Part shown: one piece after another, positions 18,603-53,687 of the stretch
Layout of the letters: every line of letters starts with the position of its first letter
Numbering within the stretch: the first letter of the stretch is position 1
Assembly (NCBI GenBank): GCA_030524785.1
Contig: JAUNFZ010000006.1
Span: 1 to 58,049 of the forward strand
Origin: Eubacteriales bacterium
Lineage (GTDB): Bacteria > Bacillota > Clostridia > Lachnospirales > Lachnospiraceae
Reading direction: 5' to 3'
Length of the DNA stretch: 58,049 nucleotides
Notes under the pieces: model-generated
Seen by the model: only the letters and a program-made list of their open reading frames with translations
What the model was told of the DNA's origin: nothing
Database searches by the model: none
Made by a program: the position numbers and the translations under genes

Positions 18603-18615
18603 AGGTGCAGAACGA

Positions 18616-19911: not shown

Positions 19912-19964
19912 GACGATTCTCTATTGTAATTTCAGCGCGTGGTTTGGTATAATACAAAAAATGC

Positions 19965-20020
19965 TTGACATTGTTATGTCATGCTGTTAGTATATTGATA
20001 TATCAAGTATATCAATATAC
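19965..20020 (+). promoter_or_regulatory. Promoter and palindromic operator of the GntR operon
   Basis: TTGACA (19965-19970), 17-base spacer, TAGTAT (19988-19993). A 31-base palindrome (19990-20020), 13-base arms GTATATTGATATA and TATATCAATATAC around TCAAG, covers the -10 box and start site. This is the position expected for repression by the GntR protein encoded next. Confidence 0.82.
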
Positions 20021-20047
20021 CAGAATACGTTTAAGAAGGTGAATGAT

Positions 20048-20764
20048 ATGATTGATAAGATGAGTCCGATTCCAATTTATTTTCAACTGAAAGAAAAGCT
20101 CCAGGGGCTGATTGAAGCCGGAGAACTGAAGAAGGGCGACCGAATTTACTCTGAAAATGAGCTGTGCGAGATGTATGATGTGAGTCGTATTACTGCAAAG
20201 CGCGCGCTGGACGAGCTGGTGAAGGACGGGTACATAAACAGACTTCCGGGTCGTGGCAGTTTTGTCCAGGGCAGTAAGATCGAACATCAATTGTCAAACT
20301 TCTATTCGTTTTCGGAGGAGGTTAAGAAGAAAGGCATGGTACCCTCCTCGGTGATTGTTAAACTGGAGGTGATTGAGGCCGACGAGTTTATCAGCGGAAA
20401 TCTGGGAATCAAAAAGGGTGATAAGGTGCATTACTTAAAGAGACTGAGAAAGGCGGACGACAGACTTATCGCATTGGATCGCTCTTTTATTCCCTTAACT
20501 GTCTGCAGCAGGCTGACAAAAGAGGAACTGGACAATAATTCACTGTATCAGGTACTAACTAACAAGGGTATTGTTCCGGAGAGAGCCACAGAGTATTTTT
20601 ATGCGGAAATCATCTCGGACAGGGACGCGGAGCTGCTGAATATGAAGCGTGGGCAGGCGTCTTTGAAAGTAGGCCGCAAAACTTACTGTCAGGAAAGGCT
20701 GATTGAGTATAATTACCGATATTATAAAGGACAGCAGTACAGTTATTCTGTGGAACTGAAATGA
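20048..20764 (+). CDS. GntR/HutC-family transcriptional regulator
   Basis: A 238-residue repressor with an N-terminal GntR winged helix (about 8-72; LCEMYDVSRITAKRALDEL is the recognition region) and a C-terminal UTRA ligand domain (about 88-230). UTRA members of this group often sense amino-sugar phosphates. The ATG at 20048 fits AAGAAGGTG better than the GTG three codons earlier. It heads the operon of transporter set 2 and the amino-sugar enzymes, and the palindrome in its promoter implies autoregulation. Confidence 0.87.
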   Translation: MIDKMSPIPIYFQLKEKLQGLIEAGELKKGDRIYSENELCEMYDVSRITAKRALDELVKDGYINRLPGRGSFVQGSKIEHQLSNFYSFSEEVKKKGMVPSSVIVKLEVIEADEFISGNLGIKKGDKVHYLKRLRKADDRLIALDRSFIPLTVCSRLTKEELDNNSLYQVLTNKGIVPERATEYFYAEIISDRDAELLNMKRGQASLKVGRKTYCQERLIEYNYRYYKGQQYSYSVELK

Positions 20765-20811
20765 TACCTGGCGCGGGGGCTTCCCGACATCAAACGGAGG
20801 TATTAAAGATT

Positions 20812-21759
20812 ATGAGGAAAAAATTACTGGGAACTATGATTACTGTATCACTGGCAGCTTCTGTCATTGGAACGGCAGCTCTGGCGGAAGAAGAATCAAA
20901 GAATTATGAGGGCGTAAAAATCGCTTATACCTGTCAGGATCTTACCAACACTTACTTTGTGGAAGTTGCAAACGGTGTGCAGGACCGCTGCGACGAGCTG
21001 GGAATTGAAGTGAACATTCATGACGGCAAAGGAGATATTGCAAATCAGGTAACGGCCTTCGAGAACTTTATATCGGAGGGTATCCAGGGAATTATCGTAA
21101 GCCCGATCGATCAGACCGCGCTTGTTCCATCTGTAAAAGCAGCGCAGGAAGCCGGTATTCATGTGATTTCGGGAAATCAGCTGGTAGAGGGCAGCGAGGC
21201 GTTTATCACACCTCCGGAGTATGAGTATGGCTTTATGATCGGCGAGAGAGCGGGTGAGTGGATCCGCGATGAACTGGACGGACAGGCAAAGGTAGCGATT
21301 TTTGATTATCCTGAATTGGAATCCATTATTGACCGCGGCAACGGTATCGAGGAAGGTATCCTGAGCGTAGCGCCGGATGCAGAGATCGTGGCCCGTCAGA
21401 GCGCGAACAGCACAGAAAAAGGCATGAGCAATATGGAAAATATTCTTCAGGCAAATCCGGATGTGGAAGTTGTGGTATGTGTAAACGACGCAGGCGCTCT
21501 GGGAGCATATGAAGCGATGATGGCAGCAGGAAAGGACAGCGACCGCGTGTTTATCGGCGGACTGGATGCAATTGACGAGGCGTTGAATAAGATTAAAGAA
21601 GGCGGCATTTACAGAGCAACGGTAGACATTCAGCCTTATGAGACAGGCAAACTGTTCGTGGACAGCCTGCTGGAGGTTATGGAAAACGGGCCCATCGAGG
21701 AAACGATTCAGGTTCCCATGAAAGTGGTAGACGCTTCCAATATTGACGAATATAAATAA
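20812..21759 (+). CDS. Sugar-binding protein of ABC transporter set 2
   Basis: A 315-residue RbsB-like receptor with a signal peptide of about 23 residues ending AALA before EEESKNY. There is no lipobox cysteine. Mature-lobe motifs include IAYTCQDLTNTYFVEVANGV and GIIVSPIDQTALVP. The ATG at 20812 follows CGGAGG. The gene comes first in the transporter set and is followed by a hairpin (21846-21867), which may let it be made in excess over the membrane parts. Confidence 0.88.
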   Translation: MRKKLLGTMITVSLAASVIGTAALAEEESKNYEGVKIAYTCQDLTNTYFVEVANGVQDRCDELGIEVNIHDGKGDIANQVTAFENFISEGIQGIIVSPIDQTALVPSVKAAQEAGIHVISGNQLVEGSEAFITPPEYEYGFMIGERAGEWIRDELDGQAKVAIFDYPELESIIDRGNGIEEGILSVAPDAEIVARQSANSTEKGMSNMENILQANPDVEVVVCVNDAGALGAYEAMMAAGKDSDRVFIGGLDAIDEALNKIKEGGIYRATVDIQPYETGKLFVDSLLEVMENGPIEETIQVPMKVVDASNIDEYK

Positions 21760-21845
21760 AGCGTGAATGTAGGAAACGATATAAGAGGAACATGACGTTT
21801 TATGTAAACAGGAAAAAAAGAGGCGGCGCATCAGAACGGTTTTGA

Positions 21846-21882
21846 GAAGGAACCGCCGGGTTCCTTCGCGCCGGCTCTTTTT
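21846..21882 (+). other. Two overlapping hairpins between binding protein and ATPase genes
   Basis: GAAGGAACC/GGTTCCTTC (21846-21867) is a perfect nine-base stem. GCCGG (21855-21859) can instead pair with CCGGC (21871-21875), which is followed directly by TCTTTTT. The two stems exclude each other, a layout like a terminator with an alternative fold. It may be simple partial termination after the binding-protein gene. Confidence 0.55.
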
Positions 21883-21935
21883 ATACCCTTTTTGAGCCAT
21901 TTATCGGGATAAACAAGGATAAGGCAGGTGAAATT

Positions 21936-23414
21936 ATGGCGGAGACAATCCTGGAATTAAAACATATCACGAAGAAATTTCCGGGCGTAGTAGCCCTGGA
22001 CGATGTCTCACTTGATATCAAAAAGGGAGAGGTGCACACTCTGGTGGGGGAAAACGGCGCCGGAAAATCGACGTTGATAAAAATTATCACCGGAGCGCAT
22101 AAACCGACCTCCGGAGAGTTCTGGTTTGAAGGAAAACAGGTGGAGAATAACTCGCCGTCCTACGCAAAACAGCTGGGAATAGGGGTGATTTATCAGGAGC
22201 TGAATCTGATGCCTCAACTGACAGTGGCGGAGAACATTTTTTATGGAAAAGAACTGAAAAAGGGAATCTTTCTTGACAAAAAGGAAATGAACCGCCGCTG
22301 TGAAGAAATCATATGCGATCTTGGGGTAAAAATAGATCCGCAGATGAAAGTTTCCAGGCTGTCCATTGCGGAACAGCAGATTGTGGAAATTGTAAAAGCG
22401 CTGTCGGAGGATATTAAAATTCTGATCATGGACGAACCATCGGCGCCATTGACAAACTCTGAGATCGACAAGATGTTTGAGATTGTAAAAAAACTGAAGC
22501 AAAAGGGCGTAGGAATACTTTACATTTCGCACCGCCTGGAGGAAGTATTTGAAATTGGAGATCGGGCGACCGTGCTGCGGGATGGAAAATATATTGTTAC
22601 GCTGCCGGTGGAGGAACTTGATAAGCAGAGCATGATCCGCTATATGGTGGGACGGGAACTGGGGCAGGACTATCCGGGTCCTTCATCCGAGCCGGGTGAG
22701 TGTATTTTGAAGGTGGAAAATCTGACGAACCATCGGATAAAAAACTGCAGTTTTGAGCTGAGAAAAGGAGAGATCCTTGGAATTGCCGGGCTGGTAGGTG
22801 CCGGGCGGACGGAACTTGTTCGAGCAATTTTTGGGGCGGATCCGGTGACAAAGGGAACCGTCACGAAAAATGGCCGGAAGCTTCAAATCAAATCGCCCAG
22901 GGATGGAATTTCGAACGGAATCGGACTGATCACGGAAGACAGGAAAAATCAGGGGCTTCTTCTGAACAAACCGATTGACTACAATACGACCTACGCCAGT
23001 ATGGATAAGGTCTGCAGAGCAGGCGTCATTGATTTTAAGAAAGAAAAAGAAATGGCAGAGAAGTATATGAAAGCCATGGACATCAAAGCATATGATAAAT
23101 CCCAGAAGGCGGGAACCCTCTCCGGCGGGAATCAGCAGAAGGTTGTTCTTGCAAAATGGCTGGCTACCGACTCGGACATTTTGATTTTTGACGAGCCTAC
23201 CAGAGGCATCGACGTAGGAGCAAAGGCAGAGATATACCTGCTGATGCGGGAGCTTGTGGAAAGTGGGAAATCCATTATTATGATATCCTCGGAAATGCCG
23301 GAACTTTTGGGAATGAGCGACAGGATTCTGGTAATGCACGAGGGGCAGATTAAGGGAACGCTGTCCAGAGAGGAAGCCACCCAGGAACAGATCCTGTACC
23401 TGGCTACATTGTAA
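21936..23414 (+). CDS. Sugar ABC transporter ATP-binding protein, set 2
   Basis: A 492-residue tandem ATPase of the RbsA/MglA type. Domain 1: GENGAGKST, LSIAEQQ, MDEPSAPLT. Domain 2: GLVGAGRTE (degenerate Walker A), LSGGNQQK, FDEPTRGID. ATG at 21936 after GGCAGGTG. Functions with the permease at 23450 and the binding protein at 20812. Confidence 0.93.
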   Translation: MAETILELKHITKKFPGVVALDDVSLDIKKGEVHTLVGENGAGKSTLIKIITGAHKPTSGEFWFEGKQVENNSPSYAKQLGIGVIYQELNLMPQLTVAENIFYGKELKKGIFLDKKEMNRRCEEIICDLGVKIDPQMKVSRLSIAEQQIVEIVKALSEDIKILIMDEPSAPLTNSEIDKMFEIVKKLKQKGVGILYISHRLEEVFEIGDRATVLRDGKYIVTLPVEELDKQSMIRYMVGRELGQDYPGPSSEPGECILKVENLTNHRIKNCSFELRKGEILGIAGLVGAGRTELVRAIFGADPVTKGTVTKNGRKLQIKSPRDGISNGIGLITEDRKNQGLLLNKPIDYNTTYASMDKVCRAGVIDFKKEKEMAEKYMKAMDIKAYDKSQKAGTLSGGNQQKVVLAKWLATDSDILIFDEPTRGIDVGAKAEIYLLMRELVESGKSIIMISSEMPELLGMSDRILVMHEGQIKGTLSREEATQEQILYLATL

Positions 23415-23449
23415 TTTTGCTATTAACGACTTCAAGGAGGAATCTTTCT

Positions 23450-24412
23450 ATGAACGGTCAAAAATCTGATAAAAAGCGGCATAATATGTCGCAGTTTGCC
23501 ATTTGGATTGCCCTGCTGGCTATGCTGATCTTCTTTTCTGTGACAACAAAGGGCTTTCTTACTTCCACAAATATATTTAACGTGCTGCGGCAGGTGGCGG
23601 TAAACGGAATCGCCGCAGTGGGGGCTACGATGGTAATTATCACAGGAGGAATCGATATCAGCCAGGGAGCAGTCATGGGCGTTGCGTCTGTGGGCTGCGC
23701 TATGATGATTAATCAGGGCATACATCCGGCTTTGGCGGTGCTGCTCTCTCTGATACTGGGGCTTGTGATTGGCATATGCAACGGATTCTTTGTATTTGAA
23801 ATCAATCTGCCGCCGATGATCGCTACCCTTGGCGTATCTACGGTGCTCCGGGGCGTGGCCTATATTATCTCCGGCGGCCTTCCGGTTTATGGTCTCCCGG
23901 AATCCTTTACGGTGATAGGACAGGGATATCTGGGCCCGATTCCCGTACCGGTTATCATTATGATCGTGTGCTTTATCTTTGGGTATTTCCTGCTGGAACA
24001 TACCGCCTTTGGAAGATATATTTACGGCGTGGGAAGCAACCGCGAAGCATCCAGATTAAGCGGTGTAAACATACGGAAAATCTATTACGGCGTATATGCG
24101 CTGTGCAGTTTTCTGGCAGCGCTGGCAGGAATCGTGCTGTTAAGCCGTGTAAACAGCGGCCAGCCAAAGGCCGGCGAAAATTACGATATGGACATCATCA
24201 CGGCGGTCGTATTGGGCGGTGTGAGTACCACCGGAGGCGAAGGAAAGATTGTGAATGTAATTGTAGGACTTTTGCTAATCGGGGTTGTGCTGAACGGCAT
24301 GGTATTGATGAATATTTCCGATTACTATCAGCGCGTGGTAAAGGGCGCCGTATTGCTGCTGGCTATCAGCTATGACAAACTGAGCCAGATGAAATCTCAG
24401 AAGACGGCATAA
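23450..24412 (+). CDS. Sugar ABC transporter permease (RbsC-like), set 2
   Basis: A 320-residue CUT2 permease with about eight to ten membrane segments. Conserved loops ITGGIDISQGAVMG, SNREASRLSGVN and VLGGVSTTGGEG are present. The ATG at 23450 is chosen for AAGGAGG nine bases upstream. It ends 27 bases before the epimerase gene, so transport and metabolism are one operon. Confidence 0.92.
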   Translation: MNGQKSDKKRHNMSQFAIWIALLAMLIFFSVTTKGFLTSTNIFNVLRQVAVNGIAAVGATMVIITGGIDISQGAVMGVASVGCAMMINQGIHPALAVLLSLILGLVIGICNGFFVFEINLPPMIATLGVSTVLRGVAYIISGGLPVYGLPESFTVIGQGYLGPIPVPVIIMIVCFIFGYFLLEHTAFGRYIYGVGSNREASRLSGVNIRKIYYGVYALCSFLAALAGIVLLSRVNSGQPKAGENYDMDIITAVVLGGVSTTGGEGKIVNVIVGLLLIGVVLNGMVLMNISDYYQRVVKGAVLLLAISYDKLSQMKSQKTA

Positions 24413-24439
24413 TCAGGAAAAAAGAAAAGGAGACGAACT

Positions 24440-25147
24440 ATGCGTATAGAAGAACTAAAAAAAGGATTGATTGTATCCTGTCAGGCAACGTCTGAGGAGC
24501 CGATGCGGGAAAGTTCCATTATCGGAAGGTTTGCGCTGGCAGCTCAGATGGGCGGAGCGGTAGGGGTACGCATCAACGGCGTTGCCGATATTCTGGCCTC
24601 AAAACAACTGGTACATATTCCGGTGGTGGGTCTGATTAAACATGTATATCCCGGATATTGGAGCTATATTACGCCAACCCTTCGGGATGTGGAAAGTGTC
24701 TATATGACAGGGGCCGAAATTGTGGCGGTGGATGTGACAAAACTGCCGAAACCTGAGGGAAAAACTGCCCGGGAGCTTATACGCCAGATTAAAAAAGAAT
24801 TTCCCGATATTCTTCTGATGGGAGACGTGTCTACCCTTGAGGAGGGAATTGCGGCGGAGGCGGAAGGATGCGACCTGGTATCATCCACTCTGGCGGGCTA
24901 TACAGAGTATACCCGTAACTATGAGGATAACAGAATTATTGAGCTGCAGGATCCTGATATCGAGCTGGTGGCTGCCCTTACACAGAAAGTGAAAATTCCT
25001 GTGGTAGCGGAGGGAAGATACTGGGACGATACACTGGCTTCCAGAGCGTTTCAGGCAGGAGCCCACAATGTGGTAATCGGCGCAGGAATTACAAGACCTC
25101 AGATCATCACGCAGAAAATTGTAAACAATATTCAGAAGTATCTGTGA
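24440..25147 (+). CDS. nanE: N-acetylmannosamine-6-phosphate 2-epimerase
   Basis: A 235-residue TIM-barrel epimerase of the NanE family. VSCQA(T) at the N-terminus, GAVGVRINGV, PVVGLIKHVYP, VAVDVTKLPKP, and VVAEGRY in the phosphate/active-site region are all family marks. It converts ManNAc-6-P to GlcNAc-6-P. It is followed by a ROK kinase that could make ManNAc-6-P, as in NanK-NanE pairs. No sialic acid lyase (NanA) is seen, so free ManNAc or a related amino sugar may be the imported substrate (inference). Confidence 0.9.
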   Translation: MRIEELKKGLIVSCQATSEEPMRESSIIGRFALAAQMGGAVGVRINGVADILASKQLVHIPVVGLIKHVYPGYWSYITPTLRDVESVYMTGAEIVAVDVTKLPKPEGKTARELIRQIKKEFPDILLMGDVSTLEEGIAAEAEGCDLVSSTLAGYTEYTRNYEDNRIIELQDPDIELVAALTQKVKIPVVAEGRYWDDTLASRAFQAGAHNVVIGAGITRPQIITQKIVNNIQKYL

Positions 25148-25174
25148 CGGAAAGCGGCAGTGAGGTGACATGAA

Positions 25175-26137
25175 TTGGCGGTAATCGGGATTGATACGGG
25201 TGGAACGAAAATTGCCGGTGCCCTGATGGATGAATCGGGAAAAATTTTGAAAAAAATGCGGCTGCCGAATACGGGACGCACCGGCGGGTCTATCATGGAT
25301 GCCTATCGGTGCATCATAAGGGAGCTGGGCAAGGACGCAGAGTATGAGGCTGTGGGTATCGGCGCCGGCGGGCGCATCGAGGAACACAGCGGAAAAGTGC
25401 TTTATGCGGTAGAGATTTATAAAGATTATATTGGATTGGAAATCAAAAAGATACTGGAGCAGGAGTTTGGAAAACCAGTATTTGTAACAAACGATTGTCG
25501 GGCCGGGCTTTTGGGGGAAGTCTGGCTTGGAGCTGCAAAAAATTACCAAAAAGTGCTGGCGCTGATCCTGGGAACCGGCGTGGGAGGCGGCGTATTTTAT
25601 GACGGCGTACTCCTGGACGGCAGCAGGGGTGGTATGGGCGAATTTGGCCATATGATTCTGCATAACGGCGGGCGCCTCTGCGCCTGCGGGCAGAGAGGGT
25701 GCGCGGAACAATATCTTTCAGGCACGGCTCTCTGGCAACGGTATAATGAAAGGGTAGCTAAAGCGGATGACGTTGGGAAAAGGGTGGGAATGAAGCAGGG
25801 GGCAGAGACCAAAATTTCTTCGGGATATGATTTCTTTAAAAGGCAGTCGCAGGGGGACAGCCTGGCAGGGGAAATTCTGAAAGAATTTACGGAGGATCTG
25901 GCGGTCTGCCTTGTGAATCTGGCAAATGCCTTTGATCCGGATGCGTTGCTGATCGGCGGCGGCCTGATTGATACCCGTGAAATATGGTGGGATGAGATGA
26001 AGCAGACTTATATTTCTCTGGGAAATCTTTATGTGAAACACATTCCGCTTTTGGCGGCGGCCTATGGAAACGATGCGGCACTGGCGGGAGCGGCAAAATT
26101 TGCCCTGGACGGACTGAGGCGAAATCGCGGCCAGTAA
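25175..26137 (+). CDS. ROK-family sugar kinase (probable ManNAc kinase)
   Basis: A 320-residue kinase. ATP-binding GIDTGGTKIAGAL opens the protein; catalytic DCRAGLLGE, the second phosphate loop LGTGVGGG, and the ROK zinc motif CACGQRGCAEQ follow. It starts at TTG 25175 with GAGGTGA upstream; the ATG at 25170 is out of frame. Beside nanE it most likely phosphorylates N-acetylmannosamine at C6, but glucokinase-like action is possible. Confidence 0.85.
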   Translation: MAVIGIDTGGTKIAGALMDESGKILKKMRLPNTGRTGGSIMDAYRCIIRELGKDAEYEAVGIGAGGRIEEHSGKVLYAVEIYKDYIGLEIKKILEQEFGKPVFVTNDCRAGLLGEVWLGAAKNYQKVLALILGTGVGGGVFYDGVLLDGSRGGMGEFGHMILHNGGRLCACGQRGCAEQYLSGTALWQRYNERVAKADDVGKRVGMKQGAETKISSGYDFFKRQSQGDSLAGEILKEFTEDLAVCLVNLANAFDPDALLIGGGLIDTREIWWDEMKQTYISLGNLYVKHIPLLAAAYGNDAALAGAAKFALDGLRRNRGQ

Positions 26138-26160
26138 AACAGATATTGGAGGATATAATA

Positions 26161-27204
26161 ATGTATATCATACTGAATGAAATAAAAGACCAGTTTTTTG
26201 CTCTGGAAAAGACAGTAAAAAAAGTAAAGGAGATGGAGGCGCCGCTGACGGAACAATTTATGGGGGCGAAAAAAACAGTGATTTTCGGTTCGGGTTCCAG
26301 CTACCTTTTGGCGAAATCCATGGCGGCGCAGCTGATGCAGCTGGCGGGGATTCCCTCATATCCTGTGCCGGCGGGGGATTTCCTTGTACAGCCTGAGGAT
26401 TATGCGAAAGCAGTCAGAGGCGCTCTGGTGGTTACGATTTCCCGCTCCGGAAGCACCAGCGAGATTATTATGGCGGTGAAAAAAGCCAAAGAGATGGGAG
26501 CTCTGGGATGTGTTTCCTACTGTGCTGTGGAAAAGGCAGAGATATCTGCCCTGAGTGATCTCGACGTGGAGCTTCCCTGGTGCTTTGACGCATCAGTCTG
26601 CCAGACCAGAACGGTTACAAATCTCTATGCGGCGCTGCTTTTAACAGCGGCCCTCTGCGTAAAGGAGAAAAAGATCATTTCCAGCCTGGAAAGGGCGCCA
26701 AAGCTTTTTGAGAAATACTGCGGGACATACGATACGGTATTTGAGGATATCGGCCGCTATGCCTGGAACCATGCGGTAGTCCTGGCGGACAGCAGCGTGG
26801 CGGGACTGGCGGAGGAGGGCGCTTTGGCCTTTAAAGAAATCTGCCAGATGAACTCTAATTTTTACCATGTGCTGGATGTAAGGCATGGTCCCATGGTGAT
26901 GGTGAATAAAGATACGCTTGTGATTGTATTTGCAGCCGGGCAGAATAAAAAGCTTCTGCAGGAGCTGATAAAAGATATACAGAAAAAGGGCGCTCTTTGC
27001 GTGGTGTTTGACTGCGGAATGGACAGGGAAGTCGGGGAGGAGATCTGCATCAATCTGCCAAAGGAACTGGATAGCCGGGCGGCGGCTCTGTTTATGATGT
27101 ATGGAATCCAGCGTCTCACCTATGAAAAAGCGATGCGCAGGCGGGTGAATCCGGACGCGCCGGATGGCCTGGACGCCTGGATTAAACTGGAAGAAGTGTT
27201 ATAA
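26161..27204 (+). CDS. SIS-domain sugar isomerase/deaminase
   Basis: A 347-residue protein with two SIS domains like the isomerase half of GlmS and like AgaS/FrlB-type deaminases. The phosphosugar loops are FGSGSSY and ISRSGSTSE; FKEICQM and RHGPMVMV lie in the second domain, as in GlmS. It would deaminate an amino-sugar phosphate to a ketose phosphate. The ATG at 26161 follows TTGGAGGATATAATA. With NanE but no NagA deacetylase in the operon, either a distant NagA is used or the true substrate is not acetylated. Confidence 0.82.
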   Translation: MYIILNEIKDQFFALEKTVKKVKEMEAPLTEQFMGAKKTVIFGSGSSYLLAKSMAAQLMQLAGIPSYPVPAGDFLVQPEDYAKAVRGALVVTISRSGSTSEIIMAVKKAKEMGALGCVSYCAVEKAEISALSDLDVELPWCFDASVCQTRTVTNLYAALLLTAALCVKEKKIISSLERAPKLFEKYCGTYDTVFEDIGRYAWNHAVVLADSSVAGLAEEGALAFKEICQMNSNFYHVLDVRHGPMVMVNKDTLVIVFAAGQNKKLLQELIKDIQKKGALCVVFDCGMDREVGEEICINLPKELDSRAAALFMMYGIQRLTYEKAMRRRVNPDAPDGLDAWIKLEEVL

Positions 27205-27295: not shown

Positions 27296-27420
27296 CAAAA
27301 AAACATAAAAATTTTTATAGATTTTTATAAAAAAGAATGATATAATTTCGGCAAAAAGTTTGAGTCGCCGTGCGGGGTCTTGGGTATCATGCAGATACCG
27401 GCGGCTTGGAGGAGAACAAT

Positions 27421-28479: not shown

Positions 28480-28506
28480 ACCACGAAAGGAATAAAAGAG
28501 CTTAGC

Positions 28507-28551
28507 AAACAGCCGGGCGGGTTTTCTTTGGAAAATCTTCCGGCTGTTTTT
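28507..28551 (+). terminator. Terminator of the LacI gene
   Basis: AAACAGCCGG pairs with CCGGCTGTTT across a 23-base loop, followed by TT; strong intrinsic terminator 28 bases after the stop. Confidence 0.78.
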
Positions 28552-28685
28552 GCGGGCTGGAACAGAGACTGTGGCACAAAAATTTGCAAAAATGTTTAAA
28601 CGTTTTTCTTTAAAGAAAAAACTGATATTAAAATTTTAGAAAAAATGCACAAAAACTAAAATAAAATATTGTTTAAAATATCATA

Positions 28686-28746
28686 TTGAAATAGAAAAAT
28701 TATAGTGTATAATAAAAATTAAATATAAAAACGTTTTTATATTTAA
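28686..28746 (+). promoter_or_regulatory. Promoter and 28-base palindromic operator of transporter set 3
   Basis: TTGAAA (28686-28691), 16-base spacer, TATAAT (28708-28713). Bases 28719-28746 are a perfect 28-base palindrome centred on ACGT with core AAAAACGTTTTT (28727-28738), covering the transcription start. A related half-like site (TTTAAACGTTTTT) lies at 28595-28607. This is an ideal repression site for the LacI protein encoded just upstream. Confidence 0.82.
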
Positions 28747-28771
28747 AGAAAAAAGTGAAAGGAGAACACTT

Positions 28772-29788: not shown

Positions 29789-29864
29789 GTTGCTGTATGC
29801 TGGTTTCAGGCGTATCACCATAAAAGAATGACATCAGAGGAGAGACAGCGGTAGGAATAGGTGT

Positions 29865-29907
29865 AAGGCGCGGACTGTAAAGCTGTGAGCCGAGCAGTGC
29901 GCGCCTT
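29865..29907 (+). other. Long intercistronic hairpin after the set 3 binding protein
   Basis: AAGGCGCG pairs with CGCGCCTT, extended inside by ACTG/CAGT past one G-G mismatch. No direct U-tract. Likely a message-stabilising or partial stop structure between the binding protein and the ATPase. Confidence 0.6.
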
Positions 29908-29953
29908 AAGCAGCTTTTGGCCTCAATATTTATTTAAGAACGCGGGTGGGGAA

Positions 29954-31456: not shown

Positions 31457-31461
31457 ACAAA

Positions 31462-42916: not shown

Positions 42917-42945
42917 AACGAACTGTAAAGATGGAGGACGTAAAG

Positions 42946-44070: not shown

Positions 44071-44083
44071 AGAGGATAGATAC

Positions 44084-45274: not shown

Positions 45275-45290
45275 AAAGAATGAAAATATT

Positions 45291-47027
45291 ATGCTGAGAA
45301 AGTTAATTAATACTCCGTCCTACAAGGTGGAGGAGATGCTGGAAGGATATGCAGGCGCTTTTCCTGACTTTTATGAACTTCATCCACAGGTAAAGGGGAT
45401 CCTTTACAAAAACAGACGGAAAGGCAAGGTAGTGCTGGTATGCGGCGGCGGAGCAGGCCATGAGCCCATGTCTATTGGATTTGTGGGCCAGGGGCTTGCT
45501 GATGCGGCGATATGCGGAAACTTATATAATTCTCCGGATGCGGACAGTATTTATCAGGTTGCAAAGGCAGCGGAATCGGGGAAAGGTATTTTGTTCCTGT
45601 ATGGGAATTACATGGGCGATAAAATGAATTTTGATGCGGCAGAAAAAAGACTGAAAGCGGAAGGAATTGCCGTTGGCCATTTTTGCGTCCACGATGATAT
45701 TGCATCAGCTCCTGTGACGAAAAAAGAAGAACGTAGAGGAATTGTTGGAGGAGTTTTTCTATACCGGATAGCTGGTGCTGCCAGTGATGCCGGTATGGAA
45801 TTAGAAGAAATCCTTGCACTTTTGGAGCGGGAAGGCAATAGGGTATGGAGTGTTGGAGCTGCGATTACAGACCGGCATAGAGATATCAGGAAAAGTGCGG
45901 CAGACCATAATTCTGAGAAAGTACATGTGGAGTATGGAATAGGGCTTCATGGAGAATGTGGAATTTTGTCTATGGAATTATCCAGTGCAGATGAATTAGT
46001 GGATAAGATGTACAGCCAGATTATGGATGAGGCAGATATTCAAAAAGACAGCGAAGTATGTGTCCTGGTGAATGGCCTGGGAAGTATTTCTTATATGGAA
46101 TTATCCATTGTTTTTCGAAGGGTGAAACAATTGCTGGAAGGAGACGGCATCAAAATATACGATGCAGATATGGATAACTATTGCTCCAGCTATGAGGCGG
46201 AAGGGTTTTCACTTGCATTGTTTAAAATTTCGGATGAAATAAAGAAGTTTTACAATGCACCCTGCTATAGCCCCTGCTATCACCACAGAGTAACAGACCG
46301 GGAAAGAGAGTATGGCAGGAGTATGGCGGTTCTGCCAAGAAAAACAGAAGAAAGCGACGGAGAATTTTATAAACCAGCCGGGGAAAAGACGAAAATTAGA
46401 AATGAAATAACAATGGAGCAATTTAGGGATATGATGCTCTATATGGCGAAGCGCCTGATCGGGGAGGAAGAATATCTGTCAGAGCTGGACAGTATATTTG
46501 GAGACGGGGATCATGGAATATGCATTGCAAATGGCATGAGGCGGGCCAGTAAGCAGATGATGACGCTGACGCAGGAACAGAAACCCGAGGATGTCTGCGA
46601 AGCTCTCAGCACTGCTATGATGCTGATTGGAGGTGCTTCCGGAGTTTTCTATGGAACCATCTTTAAAGCAGCAGCCAGAACTATTGAAGGAAAGCGTGTT
46701 TTGAACACGGCTGATTTTGCAGAGATGTGGGGAATGTCTTTGGCAGCGCTTATGGAGAAAGGACATGCCCAAAAAGGAGATAAGACCATGGTAGACGCTT
46801 TGGCGCCTGCGGCGGAGTGTCTGGCAGAGAATAAAGAAAAAGAGTTCCCGGAAATACTTTCGCTGGCAGAGAAAGCAGCAAAAAAAGGGATGTTGAATAC
46901 GAAAAAAATGGCGGCAAAATTTGGGAGAGGGAAATTCCTGACAGAGAAGGCATATGGATGCCAGGATGCCGGAGCTACTACTATTTGGATTATGTTCAGA
47001 AGTATGCGTGAATATTTGGAATGCTGA
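45291..47027 (+). CDS. DhaK-DhaL fusion kinase 1 (dihydroxyacetone/ketose kinase)
   Basis: A 578-residue ATP-dependent kinase. DhaK domain (1-330): VCGGGAGHEP and the substrate-binding histidine in GIGLHGECG, which forms a hemiaminal with the ketone. DhaL domain (about 375-575): ATP site FGDGDHGIC and GASGVFYGT, then GDKTMVDAL. Fusion kinases of this family phosphorylate dihydroxyacetone, L- or D-erythrulose or D-apulose. The ATG at 45291 has a weak GAAAGAATG site; another in-frame ATG at 45255 overlaps the hydrolase gene. Its 3' end overlaps the regulator gene. Confidence 0.9.
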   Translation: MLRKLINTPSYKVEEMLEGYAGAFPDFYELHPQVKGILYKNRRKGKVVLVCGGGAGHEPMSIGFVGQGLADAAICGNLYNSPDADSIYQVAKAAESGKGILFLYGNYMGDKMNFDAAEKRLKAEGIAVGHFCVHDDIASAPVTKKEERRGIVGGVFLYRIAGAASDAGMELEEILALLEREGNRVWSVGAAITDRHRDIRKSAADHNSEKVHVEYGIGLHGECGILSMELSSADELVDKMYSQIMDEADIQKDSEVCVLVNGLGSISYMELSIVFRRVKQLLEGDGIKIYDADMDNYCSSYEAEGFSLALFKISDEIKKFYNAPCYSPCYHHRVTDREREYGRSMAVLPRKTEESDGEFYKPAGEKTKIRNEITMEQFRDMMLYMAKRLIGEEEYLSELDSIFGDGDHGICIANGMRRASKQMMTLTQEQKPEDVCEALSTAMMLIGGASGVFYGTIFKAAARTIEGKRVLNTADFAEMWGMSLAALMEKGHAQKGDKTMVDALAPAAECLAENKEKEFPEILSLAEKAAKKGMLNTKKMAAKFGRGKFLTEKAYGCQDAGATTIWIMFRSMREYLEC

Positions 47028-48610
47028 CAATATTTTTAATAGAGGACAAAGAAAATACAAGCAGACAGGCTGCAGATTTAATAAGAGAGGCTGGTTATGA
47101 ATATGTGCCCTGCAATTGGAACAGCCGGTTGACAGTTCTGAGCGATATTGAGATAAACAGACCGGATATCGTATTGTTCTGCGCAAGTATAAAAGAGGAT
47201 ACTTTTGGAGTGACAGAATTTCTCAGGGAAATTCGTATTGTCAGTCCATCTTCTCAGATACTGGTAGTGTCAGAAAATCACAGCGTGAGGGTATGCGATA
47301 TAGCGATTGACGGTGAGGCAGACTGGGTTCTGAGCCTGGAGGAGGCGGAGCAGCTTCTTGAGAAAGTTCTTCATAGAATGGAGCGGAAGAAGCAGAAAAT
47401 CTCAAAGAATCATGCGGAAATGAAACAATATTTATTTGCTGCATTTGTAAAAGAGAAAAACAGGTTAAGCCGTGATGAATACCGCGAACTGTTTGGAAAT
47501 TATGAAAAGGAACCGCTGTTTCAGATTGTTATTGTTCATGTATTGCCTCCATACAGAAAAAGGAATCTGCTTGATGAGAATAATATCGCTACCATGAAAG
47601 GGAGCAGTATTCTGGAAGAACATCTGAAAAGGGTAGACAAATATCTTTTGGCGAAGGACAGGCTGGACATAATTATCTGTTTGATAGGAAGCGGAGAGGA
47701 ACTGCAAAATGCAAGACTTCAGTTAAATCAATATTTAAGGGATATGCAGGAAATGAATGTGACGCTGACCAGAGCGGCGGCCTGGGTGAGTTTAGGGAAA
47801 ACTGTGGAACGGACAGAAGATATTCCAGATAGTTATGCTTCGGCGTGTGCTCTTTTAAATGCCAGATTTTTTGGAGAAAGTATTAGTCTGTTGGAAGCAA
47901 AAACGGAAGATGGGACTACAAAAGAAAGCGAATTTAAAGAGCAGTTTTGGATTTATGATGTGAGAAAAACGCTGGCAAATGCATTGGAAATTTTAGATGA
48001 AAGGGTAATTCATCGGACGCTGATGCAGTTAAAGAGTAATCTTGTCAGTGCGGTAAATTTTCAGGCAGAGGATGTGTATGTTATTTATAAAACACTGGTA
48101 TCCGTGTTTTTGAAAGAATTGGAAAGCAGGGAAATTGACTTGTCAGAGCACTTTATTCATTATGACTCTTTACTGAGAGAATATGACTTTTTTTGGAACC
48201 TGGACGATTTATTTGGTAATTTGGAGAGGCTATATCTGGAGGGAATCCGTATCCTGAAGGAAAAAGAAGAAAACAGTGCGCCTTCAGCGATTGTTCAAGC
48301 GAAAAGCTATATCAGAGCATACTTTAATATGCCTTTAACACTAAAAGAAGTCAGTGATTATGTGGGGATGAATGAACACTATTTTTCTGATTATTTCAGT
48401 AAATATATGAAAATGACATTTAAGCAGTATTTGACAGAACTAAGGATCAGATACTCCAAACAGCTGCTTTTAGACCGAAGGTATTCTATGGAAGATATAG
48501 CGGAGGCAATAGGGTATAATGACGTGAAATATTTTTTTCGGGTATTTAAGCGCGTGACCGGTATTACACCAAAAGAATACAGAACAAAATATTACGTGAA
48601 AGGCGTTTAA
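47021..48610 (+). CDS. AraC-type response-regulator-like protein with degenerate receiver
   Basis: A 529-residue regulator. N-terminal receiver-like domain (1-120), a long central linker (about 130-420) as in YesN-type regulators, and a C-terminal AraC double helix-turn-helix (about 430-525; LKEVSDYVGMNEHYFSDYF and IAEAIGYNDVKYFFRVF). The receiver keeps the acidic start (LIEDKE), but the phosphorylated aspartate is Cys54 (DIVLFCA). No sensor kinase lies in the window. It probably regulates this operon without classical phosphorylation. ATG at 47021 overlaps the kinase gene by seven bases. Confidence 0.82.
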   Translation: MLTIFLIEDKENTSRQAADLIREAGYEYVPCNWNSRLTVLSDIEINRPDIVLFCASIKEDTFGVTEFLREIRIVSPSSQILVVSENHSVRVCDIAIDGEADWVLSLEEAEQLLEKVLHRMERKKQKISKNHAEMKQYLFAAFVKEKNRLSRDEYRELFGNYEKEPLFQIVIVHVLPPYRKRNLLDENNIATMKGSSILEEHLKRVDKYLLAKDRLDIIICLIGSGEELQNARLQLNQYLRDMQEMNVTLTRAAAWVSLGKTVERTEDIPDSYASACALLNARFFGESISLLEAKTEDGTTKESEFKEQFWIYDVRKTLANALEILDERVIHRTLMQLKSNLVSAVNFQAEDVYVIYKTLVSVFLKELESREIDLSEHFIHYDSLLREYDFFWNLDDLFGNLERLYLEGIRILKEKEENSAPSAIVQAKSYIRAYFNMPLTLKEVSDYVGMNEHYFSDYFSKYMKMTFKQYLTELRIRYSKQLLLDRRYSMEDIAEAIGYNDVKYFFRVFKRVTGITPKEYRTKYYVKGV

Positions 48611-48670
48611 AACGTATTGGAAGCAAAAAACGATATAGCAATTTGAAAACAGAAAAGGGGGCGGAATAAA

Positions 48671-49732
48671 GTGAAAGCTGCAGTGTATGAGGGAAATCAT
48701 CAGATTACGATAAAAGAAGGGCGCATCGTGACGCCAAAAGAACATCAGGTGCGTCTTGAAATTGCATATTGCGGGATCTGCGGTTCAGATCTCCATATAT
48801 TAAATGGAACAGAAGATAAGAGAATGAAACTGCCGTCTATTATCGGCCATGAATGTTCGGCGATAGTGGCAGAAACAGGAGCTGGGGTAACGAATTTAAA
48901 AAAGGGCGATCATGTGGTAGTGATGCCGGTAAAGGCATGCGGTGTTTGCAGAGCATGCAGAGAAGGCTTTGGTCATGTCTGCGCTAATCTGCAAGTTCGG
49001 GGAATTGAGACAGAGGGGGCGTTTCAATATAGCTGGACAGTAGATGCAGATGCGGTAATTAAGATTCCTGATTCTTTGGATTTAAAATTAGCTGCACTGG
49101 CAGAACCGTTATCTATTTGCTGTCATGTGGTGAAACGGGGAGGAGTAAAAGCCGGCGATTATGCAGTGATTATTGGAGGTGGTCCAATTGGGCTTATGAC
49201 AGCATTAGTTGCAAAGTCACAGGGGGCCCGGACAGTAATTTCAGAGGTGAACAGAAATCGTCTGAAAAAGGCCAGGGAATTGGGAATTACAGCGGTGAAT
49301 CCGATAGAAACGGATATCAGAGAATATGTGCTTCAGGCCACAGATGGTTCAGGCGCAGAGGTAGTATTTGAGACTTCTGGTTCCCAGGCAGGAGTAGAAA
49401 CAATGGTGCTTCTTCCCAAAGTAAGAGGAAAGATAGTACTTGTGGCCATTTATGGAAAGCCGATGACAGTGGATTTGAAACAATTGTATTGTTATGAGAA
49501 AGAAATAACTACTTCCAGGATGCAGGAAAAGGAAGATTTTGAAAAAGCGATTGATTTATTGAATAGAAAAGAATTTGATGCTTACAAAATGATTACTTCT
49601 GTATTACCTATTACTGAAATTATGCAGGGATTCCAGCGATGTGCCGACCCGGAGGGAAAAGAAGTGAAGGTAATGATAGATTGCCATATGAATGAAAAAC
49701 CTAGGCAGGAAACGACAAATATAAAAAATTGA
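48671..49732 (+). CDS. Zinc-dependent medium-chain alcohol/polyol dehydrogenase
   Basis: A 353-residue MDR enzyme. The catalytic zinc site is CGICGSDLHIL and GHEC; structural zinc cysteines are in CGVCRACREGFGHVC; the dinucleotide loop is IGGGPIGLM. It would oxidise a sugar alcohol to a ketose, for example threitol or erythritol to erythrulose, supplying substrate to the DhaK-DhaL kinases (inference from neighbours). The start is GTG 48671 with GGGGGCGG upstream. Confidence 0.87.
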   Translation: MKAAVYEGNHQITIKEGRIVTPKEHQVRLEIAYCGICGSDLHILNGTEDKRMKLPSIIGHECSAIVAETGAGVTNLKKGDHVVVMPVKACGVCRACREGFGHVCANLQVRGIETEGAFQYSWTVDADAVIKIPDSLDLKLAALAEPLSICCHVVKRGGVKAGDYAVIIGGGPIGLMTALVAKSQGARTVISEVNRNRLKKARELGITAVNPIETDIREYVLQATDGSGAEVVFETSGSQAGVETMVLLPKVRGKIVLVAIYGKPMTVDLKQLYCYEKEITTSRMQEKEDFEKAIDLLNRKEFDAYKMITSVLPITEIMQGFQRCADPEGKEVKVMIDCHMNEKPRQETTNIKN

Positions 49733-49754
49733 AAATCGAAAGGAAAGATTGTAA

Positions 49755-50546
49755 ATGGACGAACGGATAAAAATAAAAATCTTAGATTTGGGTGAAATTA
49801 CATGCCGTAAAAAAGAACTGATACAGACAGATTCCGAGGAAGCAATGATTTTGTCACCGATGGAAGCAGTACTGATTTATCATCCGGAGATAGGATATAT
49901 TTTGTATGACACCGGGAATGATCCTCAATGGGCACTGTCCTATACGGAGTCTATACGGGAAATATATCCTGTAACGAGAACCGTGAGTATAGAGGATGCT
50001 TTACAGAAGGAAAATTTAACCGTGGAGGACATTGATGTACTTATTCTTTCTCACCTTCACTTTGATCATGCGGGTGGGCTGAAGTTTTTCTCTAATACAA
50101 AAGCCGGCAGGCAGGTTATCGTATCGGAAGACGAATACAAAGATGCGATAAAAGAAATTGAGAAAAGCCCCGAACGTAATAAAGGAGCTTATATTGGGAA
50201 ATTATTTTATCAGTTGCCTGGAATTGAATTTAAAACGATCAGCGGACAGGCAGAATTGGCAGAGGGGATTACACTATTTGTACAAAAATGTCATACGGCA
50301 GGTGTAGTAGGAATGATTGTTGAATTGCGGGATAAAACAGTATTATTTACCGGTGATACTGTGTACCTGAAGGAAACTTACGAAAAAGAACTTCCGCCAG
50401 GCGGGGGGATCAATAAAACTCAAAAAGAGTTTTTTGATAATCTGAAGGTTCTTAAAAAGATGCAGAAAGAGCAGAAGGCAGAAATGTTTTTTGGACATGA
50501 CTACGAGCAGGCAAAAAAATGGCAGGCTTTTGGCTGGGTGGAGTAG
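49755..50546 (+). CDS. Metallo-beta-lactamase-fold hydrolase (lactonase-like)
   Basis: A 263-residue MBL-fold protein close in layout to AHL-lactonase-type enzymes. LSHLHFDHAGG is the HxHxDH metal motif, followed by KCHTAGV, FTGDTVY and FFGHDYEQ with the remaining ligands. It may hydrolyse a sugar lactone made by the dehydrogenases of the operon; a quorum-quenching role is less likely from context. ATG at 49755 after AAAGGAAAGATTG. Confidence 0.8.
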   Translation: MDERIKIKILDLGEITCRKKELIQTDSEEAMILSPMEAVLIYHPEIGYILYDTGNDPQWALSYTESIREIYPVTRTVSIEDALQKENLTVEDIDVLILSHLHFDHAGGLKFFSNTKAGRQVIVSEDEYKDAIKEIEKSPERNKGAYIGKLFYQLPGIEFKTISGQAELAEGITLFVQKCHTAGVVGMIVELRDKTVLFTGDTVYLKETYEKELPPGGGINKTQKEFFDNLKVLKKMQKEQKAEMFFGHDYEQAKKWQAFGWVE

Positions 50547-50563
50547 GAAAAGAGGAAATACAT

Positions 50564-52342
50564 ATGAGCAGAAAGATTATAAATCATCCAGATTGCGTAA
50601 TAAATGAGATGATGCAGGGTTTTGTTGAAGCATTTGGAAAATATTATGAGAAACATCCTCAGGTAAATGCGGTTCTTTCCAGATACAGGAGGAGGGATAA
50701 AGTGGCTCTGGTAGTCGGGGGAGGCAGTGGACATGAGCCTATGTTTTCAGGATTTGTAGGCGAAGGATTGGCAGATGGGGCTGCTTGTGGCAATATTTTT
50801 GCATCTCCAGATCCCAATACAGTCTATCAGACGGCAAAAGCAGTTTCCCAGGGCAAGGGAGTTCTATTTGTTTATGGATGCTATGCTGGGGATAATCTGA
50901 ACTTTGATATGGGAGAGGAATTTTTAAAGGAGGCAGGGATAGAGACCAGGCATGTACGGGTATGGGATGATGTGGCATCCGCGCCCAGGGATCGTATAGA
51001 AGACAGGAGAGGAATTGCGGGAGACGTGTTTGTGATTAAGATAGCCGGCGGTGCATGTGACGCAGGTATGAATTTGGAAGAAGCAGCCCGCATCACGGAA
51101 AAAGCACGCGATAATACCTACAGCATTGGAATTGCCACAGCACCGGCTCAATTGCCGGGAGTAGAAAAACCCATTTTTGAATTAGGGGAAGGAGAAATTG
51201 AATATGGTATGGGAATCCATGGAGAAAGAGGAATTTTGCGTACCAGTTGGCAAGAAGCAGATATTCTGACAGAAAAAATGTACGTTCAATTAATGGAAAA
51301 TGCCGAAATTAAAGCGGGGGAGGAGGTTTGTGTACTCATCAACGGCTTAGGTTCCACAACGCTGCTGGAGTTATCCATTATATACCGCAAGGTGAAAGAA
51401 CTTTTAGATAAAGATCAGATCATTGTATATGATTCTGATTTAAATAGCTACTGTACCAGCCAGGAAATGGGAGGATTCTCTATTTCTTTTCTGAGGCTGG
51501 ATAATGAGCTGAAGAAGTATTATGATATGCCCTGCCGAAGCCCATTTTATACCAGAGGGGTGTGGAAAGAAGAAAAGGAGCGTTTAGTTTCCACACTGAA
51601 AGAAAGTGAACGTTACACCGTGTCTGGAGGAGAGAAAGAATTACTGCGGGAAAAGACTTCAGAAATAGGCGGAACTGATAAACATACGGTCAAAAGCGAA
51701 GAAAATATAACAGGCAAGCTGTCTGCCCGGGCAGCCAGAAATATGCTGCTTTATGTTGCAGAAAAAATGATTGGTGAAAAAGATTACCTGACAGAGGTGG
51801 ACAATGCTGTAGGGGATGGAGATCATGGCATTGGTATGGCTGGAGGAATGGAAAAGGTAAAGCAGGTACTTTCTGCGATAAGCGAACCCCGAAGTGTATG
51901 TGAAGTATTTGATAAAGCTGGAAAAGCGATGCTTTTTTCTATGGGCGGAGCATCAGGAGTGATTTTTGGAAGCATGTTTTATGGGGGAGTCAGCGAGATG
52001 AAAGAGAAAGAGGCTTTAAGCGCTGCGGATTTTGCAAAAGCGTTCAGAAAAAGTCTGCAGACCATTAAAGAACGCGGGAAAGCGGAGGTGGGTGATAAAA
52101 CAATGGTAGACGCGTTGGAACCTGCTGCAGAGGCAATGGAAAAAGCGGCGGACCGGGGCTTTATAGAGATGCTAAAAGCAGCGGAAGCAGCGGCTAAACA
52201 GGGCATGGAGAACACGAAACACTATCGTGCAAAGTTTGGAAGGGCCAAATCTTTAATGGATAGAGCCATTGGATATCAAGATGCAGGGGCCACTTCCGTC
52301 TGGCTGATTCTTCAGGGAATGCGTGAATTTGTGGAAGGGTAG
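50564..52342 (+). CDS. DhaK-DhaL fusion kinase 2 (probable erythrulose kinase)
   Basis: A 592-residue kinase of the same build as the protein at 45291. DhaK: VGGGSGHEP and GMGIHGERG (substrate histidine). A linker of about 50 residues is followed by DhaL: AVGDGDHGIG, GASGVIFGS, GDKTMVDAL. The two proteins differ clearly in sequence, so they probably have different substrates. This one is followed directly by a TIM and an RpiB paralogue, the set used to turn L-erythrulose 1-phosphate to D-erythrose 4-phosphate in known tetritol pathways. ATG at 50564. Confidence 0.9.
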   Translation: MSRKIINHPDCVINEMMQGFVEAFGKYYEKHPQVNAVLSRYRRRDKVALVVGGGSGHEPMFSGFVGEGLADGAACGNIFASPDPNTVYQTAKAVSQGKGVLFVYGCYAGDNLNFDMGEEFLKEAGIETRHVRVWDDVASAPRDRIEDRRGIAGDVFVIKIAGGACDAGMNLEEAARITEKARDNTYSIGIATAPAQLPGVEKPIFELGEGEIEYGMGIHGERGILRTSWQEADILTEKMYVQLMENAEIKAGEEVCVLINGLGSTTLLELSIIYRKVKELLDKDQIIVYDSDLNSYCTSQEMGGFSISFLRLDNELKKYYDMPCRSPFYTRGVWKEEKERLVSTLKESERYTVSGGEKELLREKTSEIGGTDKHTVKSEENITGKLSARAARNMLLYVAEKMIGEKDYLTEVDNAVGDGDHGIGMAGGMEKVKQVLSAISEPRSVCEVFDKAGKAMLFSMGGASGVIFGSMFYGGVSEMKEKEALSAADFAKAFRKSLQTIKERGKAEVGDKTMVDALEPAAEAMEKAADRGFIEMLKAAEAAAKQGMENTKHYRAKFGRAKSLMDRAIGYQDAGATSVWLILQGMREFVEG

Positions 52343-52351
52343 GGAGGCACC

Positions 52352-53137
52352 ATGAAGAAATTATATTTTGGGTCTAACTTAAAGATGTATAAGAATATCA
52401 GAGAGACGACAGATTATCTTATACGCCTGCAGAAGCTGACACAAGACTTAGAACATGAAAAAATTACGCTTTTTATTATTCCGTCATATACATCTTTGGA
52501 TCGGGCTTCCGGTATTACGGATCAGAATCAGATCATGCTGGGAGCGCAGAATATGTGTTGGGAAGAAGTGGGGCAGTTTACAGGAGAAATATCGCCTTTG
52601 ATGCTGCAGGAGCTTGGAATTAAAATAGTAGAATTGGGACACTCGGAACGGCGCCATATATTTGGGGAAACCAATGAAATAATAGGTCAAAAAGTGAAAG
52701 CAGCTCTGGAACATGGTTTTATAGCGTTGCTGTGCATTGGCGAGACAGGAAAAGAAAAACAGTGCGGCATCAGCGATGAAATCCTAAGAATCCAATTGAA
52801 GACGGGACTTTCCAAGGTTTGTGAAGAAGAACTAGATAAACTCTGGATTGCTTATGAACCTGTATGGGCTATCGGAGTAAACGGACTTCCAGCTTCCTCA
52901 GATTATGCTCAGGAAAAGCACCATGTGATTAAAAATATACTTCAGGAACTTTTTGGAGAACCAGGAAAAGCAGTTCCTGTATTGTATGGGGGAAGCGTAA
53001 ATCTGGAAAACGCCGGTGGATTAATTCAGCAGCCGGACATTGACGGATTGTTTGTAGGACGGAGCGCATGGGATGCGGAGAAATTCAATCAATTGATCAG
53101 GGATGCTACGGAAGCTGTAAATATGGAGGTGAGCTGA
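52352..53137 (+). CDS. Triosephosphate isomerase paralogue (probable erythrulose-phosphate isomerase)
   Basis: A 261-residue TIM barrel with the TIM catalytic residues: Asn9 and Lys11 (GSNLKMY), His in ELGHSERRH and Glu in AYEPVWAIG. The loop-6 region AIGVNGLPASSD differs from the canonical AIGTGK form. TIM paralogues beside DhaK-DhaL and RpiB genes are the L-erythrulose-1-phosphate isomerases of erythritol/threitol pathways (LerI). A housekeeping TpiA in this position is less likely. ATG after AGGGAGGCACC, ten bases after the kinase. Confidence 0.85.
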   Translation: MKKLYFGSNLKMYKNIRETTDYLIRLQKLTQDLEHEKITLFIIPSYTSLDRASGITDQNQIMLGAQNMCWEEVGQFTGEISPLMLQELGIKIVELGHSERRHIFGETNEIIGQKVKAALEHGFIALLCIGETGKEKQCGISDEILRIQLKTGLSKVCEEELDKLWIAYEPVWAIGVNGLPASSDYAQEKHHVIKNILQELFGEPGKAVPVLYGGSVNLENAGGLIQQPDIDGLFVGRSAWDAEKFNQLIRDATEAVNMEVS

Positions 53138-53138
53138 A

Positions 53139-53579
53139 ATGAAAATTGCAATAGGCTGTGATCCTAATGCACAGAAAGAAAAAGAACAGATTATACAATA
53201 CATAAAATCAAAGGAGTATGGCGAAGTGGATGACTTTGGGAGTGAAGACCCGATCTACGCGCATACTGCCATTAAAGTGGCGGAGGCGGTGGCGTCTCAT
53301 AAATATCAACGGGGGATTCTGCTGTGCGGCACAGGTATTGGGGTGTCTATAGCTGCCAATAAAGTGCGTGGAGCATACGCCGCTTTGGTAACGGATGTTT
53401 ATTCGGCGAAGCGTGCAAGACTTAGTAATGATGCTAATATTATGTGTATGGGTGCTTTCACCACCGGCTCCAAAGTGAGGGAGGAATTAGTAGACGCTTT
53501 TTTGGAAAATGAGTTTGAAGAAAGCTCCCCATCACAGCCAAAAGTGGATGCTTTTAGAGAATATGACGAAGCACGATAA
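53139..53579 (+). CDS. RpiB-family isomerase (probable tetrose-phosphate isomerase)
   Basis: A 146-residue RpiB/LacAB-type isomerase. Catalytic Cys63 lies in LLCGTGIGVSIAANK. The usual HNxAN motif is SNDAN, with Ser96 in place of the histidine thought to open the sugar ring in ribose-5-phosphate isomerase B. A four-carbon phosphate does not form such a ring, so the change fits D-erythrulose 4-phosphate/D-erythrose 4-phosphate isomerisation (inference). It begins one base after the TIM paralogue stop and is the last gene of the operon. Confidence 0.85.
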   Translation: MKIAIGCDPNAQKEKEQIIQYIKSKEYGEVDDFGSEDPIYAHTAIKVAEAVASHKYQRGILLCGTGIGVSIAANKVRGAYAALVTDVYSAKRARLSNDANIMCMGAFTTGSKVREELVDAFLENEFEESSPSQPKVDAFREYDEAR

Positions 53580-53585
53580 TTTCCC

Positions 53586-53637
53586 GGATACTGTCTGAGG
53601 TTTTTCTGAACGGATGCCTGGGCAGTATCCCTTTTTT
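53586..53637 (+). terminator. Terminator closing the sugar island
   Basis: GGATACTG pairs perfectly with CAGTATCC, followed by C and six T's. It lies between the last sugar gene and the Flp promoter. Confidence 0.75.
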
Positions 53638-53687
53638 CGGCATTATGTGGGGCGCAAGACAAATTACAAAATAGACATCATATACTA

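Follow-up and report, generated by a model that had tools for sequence, protein, structure and literature searches.

A Tad pilus locus divided between TadC and flp by sugar genes, with a second tad-type promoter-like site before flp, in a genome of the Lachnospiraceae

RESULTS

Tad genes in two pieces on one contig

The subject of this study is a Tad/Flp pilus locus that lies in two pieces on contig JAUNFZ010000006.1 of assembly GCA_030524785.1 (Lachnospiraceae). The entire contig of 58,049 bp was analyzed and is referred to here as the window; it belongs to a 2.75-Mb draft genome of 114 contigs (G000). Both pieces are on the plus strand, with TadV, TadZ, TadA, TadB, and TadC at positions 15135 to 19911 and the genes from Flp to DUF6382 at 53884 to 58049, and the gap of ~34 kb between them is filled by sugar genes. 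This arrangement had been proposed in an earlier, sequence-only reading of the window, along with the absence of pilus genes from the gap. Profile matches confirmed the two pieces, and no pilus gene was recognized among the 29 main open reading frames (ORFs) chosen at 20039 to 53579.

Tad genes were assigned with Pfam, and bit scores are given against the Pfam cutoffs. The left piece encodes the prepilin peptidase TadV (15135 to 15638; Peptidase_A24, PF01478, 46.3 bits), TadZ (15632 to 16666; TadZ-like_ARD, PF21194, 22.9 bits, cutoff 27.4), the ATPase TadA (16581 to 17861; T2SSE, PF00437, 180.1 bits), and the platform proteins TadB (17862 to 18602; T2SSF, PF00482, 23.1 bits, just below the cutoff of 25.2) and TadC (18616 to 19911; PF00482, 27.5 bits), the last being the final gene of this half. 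The right piece encodes a whole Flp pilin (53884 to 54054; Flp1_like, PF16982, 88.1 bits), a DUF5702 protein (54077 to 55612; PF18960, 290 bits), a conserved tad-locus protein in the minor-pilin position that has no Pfam match and keeps its place in the tad loci of relatives (55602 to 56531), a second A24-type peptidase (56375 to 56941; PF01478, 22.3 bits, cutoff 26.5), a TadE-like protein (56969 to 57430; PF07811, 37.7 bits), and the first part of a DUF6382 protein (57427 to 58049; PF19909, 187.9 bits), which is cut by the contig end. TadZ, TadB, and the second A24-type peptidase, which score below their cutoffs, were named by position and by likeness to relatives: TadZ is 51 to 66% identical to its counterparts in the tad loci of four congeners (G003, G005, G006, and G007), and TadB is 63 to 68% identical to the TadB proteins of six congeners and 74% identical to a partial piece in G002. 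Flp is 74 to 88% identical to its counterparts in the 7 congeners. None of the tad genes contains an internal stop, their products have ordinary branch length in the tad-protein tree, and the whole draft genome holds one T2SSE match above the cutoff. Thus, the locus has the TadA-type T2SSE ATPase, the paired TadB and TadC, the Flp-type pilin, and the TadV and TadE-like proteins of a Tad/Flp system, and it departs from such a system in not being a single contiguous locus.

The locus is uninterrupted in most relatives

The comparison within the genus (a GTDB genus near Marvinbryantia) covered 8 genomes, that of the window included. The genes for TadC and the DUF5702 protein are neighbors in five of them (G001, G002, G004, G005, and G007), whereas in G000, G003, and G006 they are separated; G002 is broken further to the left, its TadB match starting at residue 99 and its TadA lying on another contig. 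At the family level, two alignments were each run against 250 genomes, and the best 150 matches to each were retained, 108 genomes being present in both; the matches were ranked best score first, so that this sample leans to closer relatives. Among the matches listed, TadC and DUF5702 are adjacent in 97 of the 108 comparable genomes. The 11 others comprise the window; G162, G154, and G146, which are uninformative because both matches (G162 and G154) or TadC (G146) lie at contig ends; G011, G160, and G174, in which inserts lie inside flp; and G023, G075, G092, and G231, in which flp is whole and the tad blocks either occupy separate contigs or have changed order. TadA and TadC, which served as the control pair, lie close together in 73 of 79 genomes, a set picked to take in 10 of the 11 nonadjacent genomes (not G000), so that these counts are not population rates. 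The six exceptions are a truncated TadA match in five genomes and the cut TadB of G002. In these samples, therefore, separations that spare the genes occur at the TadC-flp boundary, and none occurs between TadA and TadC.

The comparison indicates that the split is the derived state. The sequence-only reading had looked to relatives for an uninterrupted locus, which is what most of them have, and it would have been contradicted by the same split in all close relatives; of the seven other congeners, two have a split locus, and in these the cargo is different and the flp block is inverted. Its proposal that a region had been inserted or that the locus had been split by rearrangement holds insofar as one ancestral locus, intact in relatives, was divided; as to the choice between the two, no integrase, transposase, or common repeat was found at the junctions.

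The right half is in its ancestral place, because its neighbors are those of intact relatives. Another contig of the same assembly, C55, opens inside a repetitive part of DUF6382, matching the C-terminal part of the protein, and continues with PNP_UDP_1 (MTAN-like), one more ORF, glucose-6-phosphate isomerase, a 2-hydroxyacid dehydrogenase, and an FGGY kinase; the intact G007 and G005 have a match to each of these five genes, in the same order (42 to 93% identity). The window thus seems to end at a repeat and not at the split.

A tad-type promoter-like site precedes each half

Promoter-like sites that match the consensus at 12 of 12 positions, with a 17-nucleotide spacer, lie on the plus strand before TadV (copy V, 14948 to 14983; TTGACA-17-TATAAT, the spacer itself being conserved) and before flp (copy F, 53681 to 53716). 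The second site is found before flp in the window, G003, and G006, and no such site was found in the TadC-flp spacers (39 to 132 bp) of five intact loci. A model built from sequence alone on eight training sites (R1) was run against the 8 whole genomes, the best 150 first-look candidates being scored in each. It gave 64 listed matches, nine of them with E values below 1e-7 and the next best at 6e-4. These nine lie solely at tad genes, six before TadV (G000, G001, G003, G005, G006, and G007) and three before flp (G000, G003, and G006), that is, one in each of the intact genomes G001, G005, and G007 and two in each split genome. Eight of the nine are training sites; the ninth (G001) is new and lies between TadV and a divergent Peripla_BP_3-GGDEF gene. 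Among those candidates, no site was found in G002 or G004, the contig of the latter opening inside TadA. With a matrix made from five TadV sites alone, the three flp sites score 29.6, 38.6, and 38.4, and nothing else among 1.31 million positions scores above 23.6, a value reached ~300 bp before the TadV gene of G201. Past the promoter, the flp leader of the window aligns with its own TadV leader with a score of 45 (shuffles, 25.1; standard deviation, 5.0; 0 of 300 as good).

What this analysis adds is that, judging by their sequences, flp in three split genomes has a promoter-like site of its own, a near-copy of that of TadV. Each leader in the window also holds a small dyad on the plus strand, TGTCGTTCGACA in the TadV leader (15005 to 15016; fold z score, -1.2) and TGCCGTATCGGCA in the flp leader (53743 to 53755; z score, -1.1), neither of them significant alone; that the dyads fold better than shuffled sequences was accordingly rejected.

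In the intact genomes G001, G005, and G007, the Peripla_BP_3-GGDEF gene is divergent from TadV (loci L143, L144, and L145). The G007 copy matches GGDEF with 115 bits and Peripla_BP_3 with 78 bits, and no LacI head was found in it. The remaining five congeneric genomes, whether split or unsplit, gave no match at E 1e-40.

Sugar genes between the two halves

NCBIfam was applied to all 29 main gap ORFs at E 1e-20, and 25 of them match transporter, enzyme, or regulator families; substrates were not assigned because most of these matches are below curated cutoffs. The remaining four were searched with Pfam and gave an AAA_14/DUF4143 protein, a xylose-isomerase-like TIM barrel, an AraC regulator, and an ORF at 32467 to 33660 with no Pfam match. 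Module 1 (20039 to 27204, plus strand) encodes a GntR regulator, a ribose-type ABC transporter, a NanE-like epimerase, a ROK kinase, and an SIS-type protein, with its enzymes being of amino-sugar type, and module 2 (27370 to 33660, plus strand) encodes a LacI regulator, an allose/ribose-type ABC transporter, and the ORF at 32467 to 33660. Module 3 (33846 to 53579) has a minus-strand part with the AAA/DUF4143 ATPase and a DeoR-type regulator; the rest, on the plus strand, encodes transketolase halves, an ABC transporter, dehydrogenases, an AraC regulator, two DhaK-DhaL kinases (dihydroxyacetone kinases), triose-phosphate isomerase, and RpiB. On the left flank of the window, 5 of 10 scanned ORFs likewise match sugar transport or catabolic families (E 1e-60).

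G003, a single-contig genome, and G006 resemble the window in that sugar genes separate TadC from flp and the same kind of promoter site precedes flp. They differ from it in their gap of ~14 to 15.5 kb, in the sugar genes that fill it, and in the reversed orientation of the flp block. The G006 gap (8 of 8 ORFs scanned) encodes a LacI regulator, a solute-binding protein, two permeases, a family-2 glycosyl hydrolase, D-lyxose isomerase, and MatE and EamA transporters, and all but one of these eight have a close match in G003. Cargo common to the window and G003/G006 was ruled out, LacI-type proteins at ~30% identity being all that they share. Site-specific inversion was also considered and rejected, with no inverted match of at least 10 to 11 bases between the ends of the flp block (window/C55, G003, and G006). 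In G003, the reversed flp block is separated from the sugar genes by a PDDEXK_2 transposase-family gene (L064, 4185 to 5153).

Transcription boundaries

After RpiB and before the flp promoter-like site, a terminator-like hairpin with a T run lies on the plus strand at 53586 to 53630 (-22.5 kcal/mol; z score, -2.3; 3 of 200 shuffles as good). The plus-strand spacer between TadC and GntR (19912 to 20038) has promoter-like sites ahead of GntR but yielded no terminator, and read-through from TadC into the GntR module is possible. The sequence-only reading had suggested that the arrangement may matter for coregulating adhesion and carbohydrate use. For the flp half, this is not supported, because the predicted hairpin and a separate tad-type promoter-like site intervene between the last sugar gene and flp and because the sugar modules have their own GntR, LacI, DeoR, and AraC regulators.

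Other interruptions of tad genes in the family

The inserts in G174 (L081/L082), G160 (L083/L084), and G011 (L076/L077) are ~27 to 64 kb long and lie in the same codon of flp in three genera. Directly beside the 3' piece of flp, each has two Phage_integrase proteins and a DUF6262 protein, a set reminiscent of TnpA/B/C of Tn554. In these genomes, flp looks like an attachment site. In 5 of the 79 control genomes (G011:C16, G160:C1, G177:C1, G179:C34/C87, and G080:C52), the TadA match ends near profile position 273 to 301; the remainder of tadA lies ~14 kb away in G011 and ~18 kb away in G160, and tadA may be a second recurrent integration site. In G002 (L071, 64 to 8948), nine ORFs precede the TadB that is cut at residue 99, and five of them begin with a zinc-ribbon-like CxxC motif, as seen by eye.

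DISCUSSION

Our results are best explained if a single tad operon was divided at the boundary between machinery and pilin genes and the pilin half either acquired a tad promoter or retained one, which we consider likely. The TadV-Z-A-B-C machinery would thereby have been parted from the pilin and minor-protein genes from Flp to DUF6382. The second promoter would have been copied from that of TadV, for example when the locus was duplicated in tandem, or its promoter region was duplicated, and opposite halves were then lost. Because the pilin half has its own related promoter-like site, both halves can be transcribed from like promoters, and the two sets of genes probably have separate transcripts, one from each promoter, provided that both work and respond alike. 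The pilus is probably still made, given that the pilin half has a near-copy of the operon promoter.

Several points weigh against this interpretation. The evidence for the arrangement is one draft assembly, and the promoters and the terminator are predictions. The R1 genome search scored only the best 150 candidates per genome, and it found no tad site in G002, where 24 kb of contig that was not inspected precedes TadA. Leader pairs other than the window's own gave mixed alignment results: between the window's flp leader and the G005 TadV leader there was no alignment beyond chance (212 of 300 shuffles scored as well), and an unrelated pair, the TadV leader of G005 and the TadC-GntR spacer of the window, reached 3 of 300. 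The core of the window's flp site is identical to that of its TadV site at 34 of 48 positions and to that of the G003 flp site at 35 of 48. On these comparisons, the likeness of the promoters could reflect selection for one regulator and not copying.

Whether the locus was divided once or twice in the genus is finely balanced. A single split in one ancestor inside the genus, in which a promoter-bearing pilin block was separated, differing cassettes were then gained, and the block was inverted in G003/G006, has in our judgment a little less than an even chance. Seven alignment columns set the three flp sites apart from the six TadV sites, the top value among 84 triplets (the next is 4), although in four of these columns no more than two or three TadV sites have a letter; two of the seven are, by eye, both sides of one leader-dyad pair, T-A in the TadV sites of G001 and G005 and C-G in the flp sites. 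These shared columns, the dyad pair included, therefore favor one origin. The three flp sites also group at 70% bootstrap, and the gene order of G003/G006 is that of the window plus one inversion. However, the tad-protein tree rejects a clade of the window, G003, and G006 (approximately unbiased [AU] test, P = 0.018 for all genes and 0.021 for the left block), and the group also takes in the intact G001 and G007, so that a single split would need rejoining or exchange between species. The clade is not rejected by the right block (AU P = 0.073) or by rpoB, which at 0.29 was set aside as an arbiter.

Alternatively, the lineage of the window and the ancestor of G003/G006 may have split the locus independently at the same junction, each with a tad-type promoter gained and with sugar cassettes between the halves. 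Such a history would agree with these AU tests, with the different cargo of the window and G003/G006, and with the blocks found apart or reordered around a whole flp in four other genera (G023, G075, G092, and G231). The promoter columns common to the three flp sites speak against it, and we give it slightly under even credence.

Taken together, these observations raise the tentative possibility, which we rate as less likely than not, that the Tad pilus of this genus has two lasting genetic forms. One would be a single operon beside a gene for a sugar-sensor-like diguanylate cyclase (G001, G005, and G007). The other would be a split form without that gene (G000, G003, and G006), with two operons, one for the machinery and one for the pilin, tied by a duplicated, tad-only promoter and a small covarying leader dyad; its pilin operon could invert, and its gap could take differing sugar cassettes. 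The TadC-flp junction would then be a tolerated break point that rewires control of the pilus. Control of tad may differ between the forms, because the Peripla_BP_3-GGDEF gene is matched, at E 1e-40, only in G001, G005, and G007.

A mobile element inserted between TadC and flp is an unlikely source of the sugar region. In favor of one, the inserts of G011, G160, and G174, with their integrase proteins and DUF6262 protein, lie in flp itself; for the window, insertion into flp was rejected since flp is whole. At the thresholds used, neither integrase, transposase, or relaxase among the 29 gap ORFs nor end repeats were recognized at 20039 to 53579, and the two junctions have no common stretch of at least 11 bases. 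A misjoin, in which the halves are truly adjacent and the contig is chimeric, is very improbable: the genome is a draft of 114 contigs, 92% complete and 3.7% contaminated, but a shared stretch at the junctions is lacking, the right flank continues as in relatives, and flp is preceded by a site otherwise seen only at tad loci, including at flp of the single-contig G003, so that flp is detached from TadC whatever lies further upstream.

The case shows where a tad operon can be severed with every gene left whole, and the second promoter-like site of like kind suggests a way for the two halves to remain expressed. Nature here provides an experiment on whether transcription of the pilus machinery must be coupled to that of the pilin, in gut bacteria whose pili seem little studied, judging from the results of our literature search; none of the papers listed in that search dealt with such a tad split.

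Tad genes reportedly almost always form a single locus (PMC6668835). Like the Gram-positive single-locus Tad (type IVc) operon, the window has the full series of genes, TadV-Z-A-B-C-Flp-DUF5702-...-A24-TadE-DUF6382, in the order seen in intact loci of its genus and family; unlike it, the window has two blocks ~34 kb apart, each with a tad-type promoter-like site. Micrococcus luteus has two tad clusters, both of which are needed for transformation (PMC4322843), and it resembles the window in having tad genes in two places. However, each of its clusters has its own tadA-B-C and tadE/F-tadG-type genes, whereas the window divides one set between two places.

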